Under the pieces are notes generated by a model that had not been told where the DNA came from, searched no databases, and worked only from the letters and a program-made list of their open reading frames with translations. A program made the position numbers and the translations under genes. A stretch of DNA of 64,000 nt from Cryobacterium sp. BB307 (GTDB taxonomy: Bacteria > Actinomycetota > Actinomycetes > Actinomycetales > Microbacteriaceae). Positions 16,442 to 59,659 of the stretch are shown one piece after another (positions within the stretch are counted from its first letter, which is position 1; every line of letters starts with the position of its first letter). Where the stretch lies: NCBI RefSeq assembly GCF_012274275.1, contig NZ_JAANZA010000001.1, forward strand, positions 434,001 through 498,000, in the 5' to 3' direction.

Positions 16442-16531
16442 GGTGGACAGCCTATCGAGGCGCGCATCCGGATGTAGACGCGGAGGCGGGGCGCGCTAAC
16501 ATGGGTGAACCGACGCCGAATGGCCCGGTGT

Positions 16532-16605
16532 GCGGATGTAGTTTAATGGCAGAACTTCAGCTTCCCAAGCTGATAGCGCGGGTTCGATTCCCGTCATCCG
16601 CTCCA
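16532..16605 (+). tRNA. tRNA-Gly, anticodon CCC, CCA end encoded
   Basis: Full cloverleaf: acceptor GCGGATG/CATCCGC, D stem GTTT/GAAC, anticodon stem TCAGC/GCTGA with loop TTCCCAA (anticodon CCC, reading GGG), T stem GCGGG/CCCGT with loop TTCGATT, discriminator T, then CCA at 16603-16605. No second copy of its 3' end is visible downstream. Confidence 0.97.
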
Positions 16606-16640
16606 CAAAGTGACGACTGCTGTTCTCGCTCTGTTGTCGG

Positions 16641-16702
16641 ACGCAAAGTTACTTTTCGCGCGCCCAAGGTTAGTTTTCGTGAACGCAAGAATGTTTTCGC
16701 GG
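16641..16702 (+). repeat. three tandem ~21-bp units; left end of an inverted-repeat pair
   Basis: Units start at 16641, 16662 and 16683, each of the form xCGCAAxxTTAxTTTTCGxGx (period 21, the last unit one base short). Bases 16670-16699 match the reverse complement of 17668-17696 at 25 of 30 positions with one gap. The ACGAAAACT core on the complementary strand resembles Tn3-family transposon ends. Confidence 0.65.
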
Positions 16703-16806
16703 TCGCGCCGAGTGAGTGATCGAAGAATCGTCGATCGCACTCCAGGTAACGCCCGGTCGTGAGATACTCCGCCGAGAGCACCCCATTGCTAGGGTCGCTC
16801 ATATAA

Positions 16807-17493
16807 ATGGATGACATGAGGACGGACACGCATCGAGTAGACAACGCTGCGCGGTCCCGTCACCGTCTTGCTGCTGCGCTTTGGGTGCTCGGCAGCGGGC
16901 TCCTCGCATTCCTGTTCGGCTGGTCGGCCATTTCGCTCACACGAGACCAGTTGCACATCAGATGCAGCATGGGTCCACCTGGTTCTGAGGGTGCGGATAG
17001 CTGGCATTGCAGCGACGGCATCGGATATGTCGGTGTAGCCGTCGTTCTCGGAGTGATGTGGTTCCTTGTGGTTCTGGCTGGCTCCCTCGTCGCGCTGCTC
17101 GTCGAGCGGAATCGAACGGCGCGCGTGCTTCTTGTTCTACTTGCCGCGATTTCGACCGCGTGGATTCTCGGATGGACCTGGTACGGATCCAGCGAGCTTG
17201 TTCAGGATGAGTACGCTCCGATGACAGGAACAGAGTATTGGGCACACGCGGTCGGGCCGGCTGCCGCCGTCAGCACCCTCAGCGTTGCAGCTGGGCTGGT
17301 CACTCTCGTGCTGACCAGGCGGCTCTCATGGATCATAGGGATCGGCGCCGCCCTCGGTCTCGCCGTTGCGACCATTCTCCAGCCGGGACTGAGCCTAAAT
17401 ACCTTGCCGGCGGTGGGGTTACTCGCCTCCGCAGCCGTCCGAGGTGTCCACGACGGTCGCCCTCATCGTCCCGCCGCTTCCCCTCGGCCGTAA
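16807..17493 (+). CDS. orphan multi-pass membrane protein
   Basis: 228 aa. Four to five hydrophobic segments (about residues 22-43, 75-98, 106-125, 148-168, 172-205). A loop after the first helix carries two cysteines (IRCSMG...WHCSDG), which could pair outside the cell. I recognise no family. The gene is the only one between a pair of inverted repeats (16641-16702 and 17661-17700) just downstream of tRNA-Gly, and its GC bias is lower than that of neighbouring housekeeping genes, so it may be cargo of a small mobile element. The ATG at 16807 lacks a good ribosome site; the in-frame ATG at 16816 is an alternative. Confidence 0.55.
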   Translation: MDDMRTDTHRVDNAARSRHRLAAALWVLGSGLLAFLFGWSAISLTRDQLHIRCSMGPPGSEGADSWHCSDGIGYVGVAVVLGVMWFLVVLAGSLVALLVERNRTARVLLVLLAAISTAWILGWTWYGSSELVQDEYAPMTGTEYWAHAVGPAAAVSTLSVAAGLVTLVLTRRLSWIIGIGAALGLAVATILQPGLSLNTLPAVGLLASAAVRGVHDGRPHRPAASPRP

Positions 17494-17660
17494 GAGGCGA
17501 AGTGTGGCACGAGACGGGGAATCTGCGACCAGCGGCGCTAGTAAGCTCGAGCACTCCTGTCGCCTCGCTCGGAGACGGACAGCAGTTCCGTGTTCGGAGA
17601 GGGTCAGGGAGTCGCAACGCGGACCATGAGCTCCTCACTACGGAGCTTCAGGGCGCGCTG

Positions 17661-17700
17661 CTGCTTACGAAAACTTTTCTGCGCTCACGAAACTAAACGT
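17661..17700 (-). repeat. right end of the inverted-repeat pair
   Basis: The reverse complement carries two of the units seen at 16641-16702; see that entry. The outward-facing pair spans 1.06 kb. Confidence 0.65.
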
Positions 17701-17813
17701 GATTCCTACAGTTGGTGAGCCTCGCCGCATGCGTGACCACGCCTCCAGCGGCAAGGCTACCTACCTTGCCTCAGCCCCTAGCGCACAAGAAATCCCCACG
17801 GGCTGGATCCCTC

Positions 17814-17835
17814 TGAATGAAAATCTGATCATTCA
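17814..17835. promoter_or_regulatory. operator-like palindrome
   Basis: TGAATGA-N8-TCATTCA, 7-bp perfect arms, about 200 bp upstream of the serine hydrolase gene. Binding protein unknown. Confidence 0.35.
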
Positions 17836-17944
17836 TCCGGCCCACTAACCCCGGGGATCCTTGATCGCGCGTATGTCTCAACCTGTCTGAGAACCCGGCT
17901 AAGTCCCTGAAGCCGAGACGGCCGAGCCCTCGCCCGAATCCGAG

Positions 17945-20497: not shown

Positions 20498-21454
20498 ATG
20501 AGCCACCCCATCGAGATCCCCACAATCAGCATCGACCGCGACCCGGCCGTCGTCGGCCACGAAATCGACCAGACGCTGCGTGAGGTCGGTTTCTTCCAGA
20601 TCGTCGATCACGGCGTGCCGGATGCTGTCACCGACCGTTGCTGGGAGATCACGCGCACCTTCTTCGACCTGCCCCTCGATCGCAAGCTCGAGGTGGAGCG
20701 ACCGGCTGGCGGGCTCTATGGGTACTTCCCGATGCTGTCGGAGTCGCTCGCCAATTCGCTCGACGCGATGGCCCCCGGCGACCTGAAGGAGAGCTTCAAC
20801 ATGGGCCCGGGTGCCACCAGCCGCACCCTCGCCGACGAGACCGAGGCCAGCCTGTTCTCGCCCAACGTGTGGCCTACCGCGCTGCCGGAGATGCGCGAGG
20901 CCTGGGATGCCTACTTCGCCGCGATGACGGACCTGTCGAACCGCCTGATGTCGATCTTCGCGCTCGGCCTCGACCTGCCGGCCGACTTCTTCGCGGACAA
21001 GATCGACGCCAGCCCGAGCGCACTGCGCGCCATCAACTACCCCGAGCAGACCACTCCTCCAGAGGAGGGCCAGCAGCGCGCCGGCGCCCACACCGACTAC
21101 GGCACGCTGACCATCCTGCGCCAGGAGCTCGGCAAGGGCGGCCTACAGGTGCGCGACGACAAGTCGGATGCCTGGGTGGACGTTCCGCCGACCGCGGGCG
21201 CCTACGTCATCAACATCGGCGACCTGATGGCCCGGTGGACCAACGACCGCTGGACGTCCACCCTGCACCGCGTGGTGAACCCGGATGCCGGCTCCTCGAA
21301 GTCTCAACGTCGCCAGAGCATGCCCTTCTTCCACAACGCCAACTACTCGACCATCGTGGAGTGCATCGCCACGGGCGAGGAGCCGAAGTACGAGCCGGTG
21401 ATGGCCGGCCCGCACCTGGCCGGAAAGTCGCACAAGAGCATCGTCGGCTCCTAG
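20498..21454 (+). CDS. 2-oxoglutarate/Fe(II) oxygenase, isopenicillin N synthase family
   Basis: 318 aa. N-terminal DIOX_N segment (EVGFFQIVDHGV) and C-terminal 2OG-FeII_Oxy domain. The metal triad is H198-x-D200 (AGAHTDYG) and H257 (STLHRVV), with R272 in RRQSMPF as the 2-oxoglutarate anchor. Bacterial relatives oxidise small molecules, often in catabolism or natural-product pathways; no partner genes are nearby. The ATG at 20498 is well placed. A dispersed repeat element follows the stop. Confidence 0.88.
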   Translation: MSHPIEIPTISIDRDPAVVGHEIDQTLREVGFFQIVDHGVPDAVTDRCWEITRTFFDLPLDRKLEVERPAGGLYGYFPMLSESLANSLDAMAPGDLKESFNMGPGATSRTLADETEASLFSPNVWPTALPEMREAWDAYFAAMTDLSNRLMSIFALGLDLPADFFADKIDASPSALRAINYPEQTTPPEEGQQRAGAHTDYGTLTILRQELGKGGLQVRDDKSDAWVDVPPTAGAYVINIGDLMARWTNDRWTSTLHRVVNPDAGSSKSQRRQSMPFFHNANYSTIVECIATGEEPKYEPVMAGPHLAGKSHKSIVGS

Positions 21455-50877: not shown

Positions 50878-50924
50878 CCGCTGGGCAGTCCTCTCCCCCG
50901 ACAAGCGCTCGCGCGGGTGTTTCT

Positions 50925-50958
50925 TGCTCGCGCGGGTGCTGCAACAACCGCGCGAGCA
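50925..50958 (+). terminator. hairpin terminator after the ASCH gene
   Basis: TGCTCGCGCGG pairs with CCGCGCGAGCA around a 12-base loop. A direct repeat of GCTCGCGCGGGTG (50907 and 50927) precedes it, so the downstream arm has two possible partners. Confidence 0.6.
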
Positions 50959-51083
50959 CAATTCACCGCGCGGTGGCGCGGTGGGCGACAACGGGCCGCG
51001 CGGCGAAGGCGCCGACTACACTTGCCGAAGGTGCGCCGGGAAGTCTGGTCGGCAATGAGACCGCCGACCCCGGAAGGCACCTT

Positions 51084-59554: not shown

Positions 59555-59659
59555 GGTGGTACTCCTGTTCTGATCTACCGTGGGACGATCGCCCCACCCA
59601 AGGTCACTTGTCGGCATGCCAGATCCGAGATTCTTTCCGCTCGGATGGCACACAAAGAA

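Follow-up and report, generated by a model that had tools for sequence, protein, structure and literature searches.

Inverted repeat arrays around a membrane-protein gene beside tRNA-Gly in Cryobacterium sp. BB307: a possible Tn7-like remnant

In Cryobacterium sp. BB307, a single predicted membrane-protein gene lies between two short arrays of repeated units, with a tRNA-Gly gene immediately to the left. This arrangement raises the question of what the arrays delimit and by which kind of enzyme, if any, the enclosed DNA was moved. Here we describe the arrays, the gene, the tRNA site and a second, intact element of the same genome, and the possible explanations are weighed against each other. 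Positions refer to the window, that is, the whole stretch of 64,000 nucleotides that was analysed.

Two repeat arrays and the edges of the segment

The paired repeat arrays are confirmed as real. The left array (16639-16701) consists of three tandem units of 20-21 bp, whose starts are spaced 21 and 20 bp apart, and the right array (17666-17707) of two units spaced 20 bp and inverted with respect to the left ones. This agrees with a previous sequence-only reading, which described three tandem and two inverted units around one gene; its figure of 25 matching positions out of 30 between the two sides was not reproduced, the closest left/right pair of units being identical at 16 of 22 positions. 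With the 22-mers of both arrays aligned on TTTTCG in a weight matrix, the left units are placed on the plus strand at 16639-16660 (unit 1, partly palindromic), 16660-16681 (unit 2) and 16680-16701 (unit 3), and the right units on the minus strand at 17666-17687 (inner) and 17686-17707 (outer). Pairwise identity within the left units is 16, 13 and 11 of 22.

Each array recovers the other. On both strands of the 64-kb window, a matrix trained on the left units gives the right inner unit 16.7 bits and the next site 13.3, and above it stand the three training units and one site of 16.8 bits, which overlaps unit 1 because this unit is partly palindromic. Conversely, training on the right units puts left unit 3 first among the new sites, with 19.4 bits against 14.0 for the next one. 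Moreover, the score of the right-hand pair (26.8 bits) was reached in none of 5000 simulated sequences (mean 6.9), the maximum of 25.6 being close, and the left triple is the top tandem triple of the window (50.1, the second being 42.6). A 16-base core, searched with up to 3 mismatches, occurs four times in the window, where 0.31 occurrences would be expected: at two of the left units, at a site that overlaps unit 1 on the opposite strand, and elsewhere at 59598. These statistical controls are generous, since the units had been chosen beforehand by the sequence-only reading and aligned by eye. In composition-blind ungapped repeat scans, the array pair is absent from the matches listed (the best 8 in one scan); the signal of the arrays sits on A+T positions in DNA of 67% G+C, and plain inverted-repeat scans therefore miss the pair.

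Both arrays are capped on the outside by TGT at nearly equal distance, with TGTCGGA starting at 16635 and TGTAGGA running inward from 17710 on the other strand, and the edges of the segment were picked on account of these TGT. The putative element so delimited (16635-17710, TGT...ACA) measures 1,076 bp. Its two 24-base termini are identical at 14 of 24 positions. Of the 1043 24-mers in the window that start with TGT, a pool that contains the termini as well, 11 match the left terminus equally well. The segment has a G+C content of 60.9% in a window of 67.1%, a value as low as this being found in 6 of 315 stretches. Past the right edge, however, G+C stays low up to 18033 (58.5%), and this edge is therefore not visible in the composition. 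A 5-bp target duplication, for which the sequence-only reading had proposed to look, is absent around 16635-17710, where TCTGT stands against GTTGG, and all frames tried gave one 4-bp match. A tblastn search of the window for remnants of tns genes with two sets of Tns proteins gave nothing better than an E value of 0.15, and the open reading frames inside the segment include one likely gene and no transposase gene.

The enclosed gene and the tRNA-Gly site

The enclosed gene (16807-17493, plus strand) encodes a protein of 228 residues, predicted to be a membrane protein from long hydrophobic stretches read by eye. For this protein, Pfam yields nothing above the cut-off and NCBIfam, PADLOC and PHROGs give no match, and its structure prediction (pLDDT 54) is too poor for use. 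Homologues are present in 12 of 398 genomes of the family, belonging to 8 of 85 genera with the own genome counted, and a further one occurs in Microbacterium sp. Bi121 (64% identity), while the gene was not found in seven congeners. The dN/dS values against two homologues are 0.24 and 0.26, and therefore the reading frame codes and was under selection in its family.

The presumed attachment site is the tRNA-Gly gene with anticodon CCC (16532-16605, plus strand; ARAGORN), which is separated from the single copy of the segment by 29 bp. On the left flank, dcd is present in all seven congener stretches, and the right-flank gene at 20498 in three, which keep both flanks. The interval from tRNA-Gly to the gene at 20498 gave no blastn match in the fetched congener stretches; given that both flanks are kept and the interval is unmatched, the site looks variable. 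No empty site is readable in the three of seven stretches with both flanks, none of which resembles the window interval, and visual inspection suggests a MarR-like gene common to two of these three.

A resident tnsABC element and the search for a partner

The same genome contains an intact element of 20,634 bp (G000:C2:42579-63212; loci L149 and L152), to whose tns operon a weak rve match under the cut-off had pointed and whose ends were located by the tandem-triple scan. The operon encodes TnsA (NF033179, 154.6 bits), TnsB (Mu-transpos_C, 33 bits) and TnsC (TniB, 59.2 bits), and at the place of TniQ/TnsD a protein of 659 residues with four DUF4379 zinc-finger stretches, which, judging by this place and by its N-terminal pattern, would be the selector of the element. 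The Pfam TniQ model PF06527 reports nothing in the genome although this operon with its TniQ-like zinc-finger protein is present, a protein that the model thus overlooks and that has no match in the seven congeners. The interior of the resident element also includes a Hypoth_Ymh gene, for which a weak HEPN match was obtained, and a portion of a large restriction-modification enzyme (Mrr_cat_2, ISP coupler).

A comparison of the resident element with the window segment reveals the same host, a tRNA-Gly target and inverted repeated units at the ends (two per end by eye in the resident element). However, the resident element has a tns operon, a perfect 5-bp duplication (ATTGG on both sides), units of another sequence and a TGA terminus on the tRNA side, and it ends 2 bp, not 29 bp, from its tRNA-Gly(TCC). 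From its intact state at this tRNA and the ATTGG repeats it follows that a Tn7-like element does use tRNA-Gly in this genome. Within 80 kb around it no unit pair exceeds 14.8 bits, compared with 46-51 bits at the window segment, and its two end arrays match the window units at random level (controls as good or better in 135 of 333 and 430 of 455 cases). That the resident element would be the helper of the window segment is not supported, as their units appear to differ. A likeness between the left terminus of the segment and the resident terminus (13 of 24 positions) was dropped, being equalled by 100 of 2415 TGT-starting 24-mers.

Searches for other copies gave a similar picture. The sequence-only reading had proposed to search the genome for the 21-bp unit. 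When up to 3 mismatches are allowed, the core pattern has 10 matches there, three in the left array and seven elsewhere (2-3 mismatches), and a control pattern has 24, so the recurrence does not go beyond chance. Relatives with the same ends, for which a search had also been proposed, did not emerge: at up to 3 mismatches, no genome but the own one gave the unit pair in 398 genomes of the family and 396 of the order, two overlapping sets that both include it. Close copies of the ends (up to 3 mismatches) on an autonomous element were sought in the own and related genomes, and the window site was the only one recovered.

With scored unit pairs, the best near 13 TniQ genes reaches 21.4 bits and a control congener stretch 20.8, against the 46-51 bits of the segment, and the best at four plasmid tns loci (from among 548 plasmid records in which TnsB is matched) 12.7 bits. 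The surroundings of the 13 TniQ genes were also scanned for TGT termini flanked by exact 5-bp duplications; no clear case emerged, and the same scan missed the resident element, whose tRNA-side terminus is TGA. When eight Tn7-like end regions were compared with the units, controls were as good in 1 of 231 cases for L084 and 7 of 160 for L097; weaker results were obtained for L155 (3 of 50 and 8 of 47 on the two strands) and L157 (34 of 408 on the better strand), and L156, L158 and both resident ends were at chance. Three scans of viral contigs gave a single match, L033, of another kind. Against plasmid and phage records, the matches listed for positions 16500-17800 (20 of 211 and 20 of 230 records) correspond to the tRNA part, and the array alone gave two matches in each, with E values of about 8-9.

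Possible explanations for the segment, and other repeats noticed

Transposons of the Mu, Tn7 and IS21 kind carry inverted arrays of ~20-bp sites within TGT/ACA termini, and TGT...ACA termini are typical of Tn7-like transposons. On this background, the segment 16635-17710 is probably, though by no means securely, a non-autonomous or decayed multi-site DDE (rve) element, most likely a Tn7-like one, a reading adopted because of the inverted arrays, the TGT caps and the distance from the tRNA. In such an element, a TnsB-like transposase would bind the 20-21-bp units, of which one end has three and the other two, and would cut at the TGT/ACA termini. The position 29 bp from the tRNA gene would be the choice of a TniQ/TnsD-like selector, with tRNA-Gly as a safe site, and the membrane-protein gene would be the only cargo carried between the arrays. 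The segment may once have moved as a unit, the transposase presumably acting in trans.

In the work of Benler et al. (PMC8649781), Tn7-like elements are delimited by arrays of sites, with three on the left and four on the right in Tn7 itself, and their safe sites include positions downstream of tRNAs. The gap of 29 bp found here resembles the distance in CyCAST, whose TnsD-directed homing leads to a point around 30-33 nt beyond the end of the tRNA (PMC10293859). At each end, the Tn7-like elements that home to tRNAs (CAST I-D and I-B2, TnsD-directed) also have arrays of ~20-bp sites, the two arrays being inverted with respect to each other, and their termini are TGT/ACA. Unlike them, the segment has no tns genes and no 5-bp duplication, is 1.08 kb long with one cargo gene and has units that find no strong match at the loci scanned.

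The low G+C content, the patchy distribution of the cargo gene, the resident tRNA-Gly element and the unmatched congener interval count for the Tn7-like reading, whereas the missing 5-bp duplication, the unit sequences without a strong match at the loci scanned, the lack of a tns remnant and the scanned homologues without flanking units count against it. The segment does not qualify as a Tn7-like transposon, since tests for the core genes and for the 5-bp duplication found neither; that it works or worked like one is the best explanation, in which we have moderate confidence. A more specific version, which we consider quite unlikely, is a minimal trans-mobilizable Tn7-like cassette of ~1 kb, with two arrays, one cargo gene kept by selection and a selector encoded elsewhere, delivered to tRNA-Gly. 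If a cassette of this type moved in trans, transposase-first searches would miss such elements, and a lone cargo gene next to a tRNA could move without any mobility gene of its own. Mobile insertion cassettes and MITE-like elements with a passenger also combine transposon ends and one passenger gene with the lack of a transposase; however, their ends are typically single repeats and not multi-site arrays.

The main rival, in our estimation unlikely, takes the units as arm-type sites of a tyrosine integrase and the segment as the attL...attR of a tRNA island without its integrase, an arrangement known as a cis-mobilizable element (CIME). The location directly beside the 3' end of a tRNA, the missing recombinase gene and the mutual inversion of the arrays, like that of attL/attR arms, would fit this proposal. 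Also, partial second copies of the 3' end of tRNA-Gly(CCC) lie just downstream of it in the congeners G006 and G001 (L018 and L017, about 1580-1660); they are like leftover attachment sites, which suggests that integrases also use this tRNA. Nonetheless, the segment differs from such islands in that it has no repeated attachment core: beyond the right array, the best repeat of the tRNA 3' end (13 of 16 positions at 17833-17848, score 8.5) is equalled or exceeded in 40 of 151 control stretches. Moreover, no comparable units occur at L061, a locus of the own genome with a phage-type integrase (best pair 17.2 bits), this being the only integrase locus scanned, far fewer than the Tn7-like and IS21-type ones.

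It is very unlikely that the arrays are end pieces of another multi-site DDE element that is not Tn7-like, for example IS21. The resemblance lies in the multiple repeats at both ends, the transposase of IS21 being of the DDE type; according to PMC10122671, IS21 ends bear two or more direct repeats each and insertions by IstA show 5-bp direct repeats. However, similar units are absent from 50 IstB-type loci of the family (30 taken from a list that names many more places and 20 from a second list), where the best pair has 17.8 bits against 46-51, the units differing from those loci, and no istAB is seen by eye among the reading frames of the segment. A position adjacent to a tRNA is also not typical of IS21, and it was counted against this origin.

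A role of the units as operators or as a regulatory array of some other sort, with an incidental pairing around the gene, is highly improbable, although the partial palindrome of unit 1, with its minus-strand score of 16.8, would suit a regulator. Two of the units, in inverted orientation, are located downstream of the gene at a distance of 173-214 bp, and the six homologue loci scanned (L002 and L053-L057) have no comparable pair, the best reaching 12.9 bits in L054 at 3.6 kb from the homologue; conserved operators of the enclosed gene, an option that the sequence-only reading had itself named, are thus not favoured. Finally, that reading was right in describing a transposon-end-like segment with cargo and no transposase, whereas the Tn3-family miniature element that it derived from the short ACGAAAACT sequence, which matches the Tn3 repeat, is hardly tenable, as Tn3 ends are a single ~38-bp repeat beginning with GGGG and the segment has TGTCGGA/TGTAGGA termini, several units of 20-21 bp and no 5-bp duplication.

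Other repeats and tns loci were noticed in the course of the scans. A clear Tn7-like end array, TGTCCGATCTCACCAAAAGTGTCGG..., with units of 20-22 bp, is found at L097:6189-6284 in genome G261, where it adjoins a set of genes that by eye resembles tnsA-B-C and two TniQ genes. In a Rhodococcus plasmid (L158:8948-23859), three neighbouring tnsA-B-C-tniQ-like sets are present, two in tandem and the third divergent, and the TnsB of one set is annotated merely as a helix-turn-helix protein. At L061:10803-10911 (G000:C2 near 472.8 kb), about 0.9 kb downstream of the phage-type integrase of 388 residues, four iteron-like 21-bp repeats, three of them at a spacing of 21-22 bp, lie inside an open reading frame. 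In the window itself, the tandem scan also revealed short tandem and inverted GC-rich repeats at 50908-50965, CTCGCGCGGGTG...CCGCGCGAGCA.
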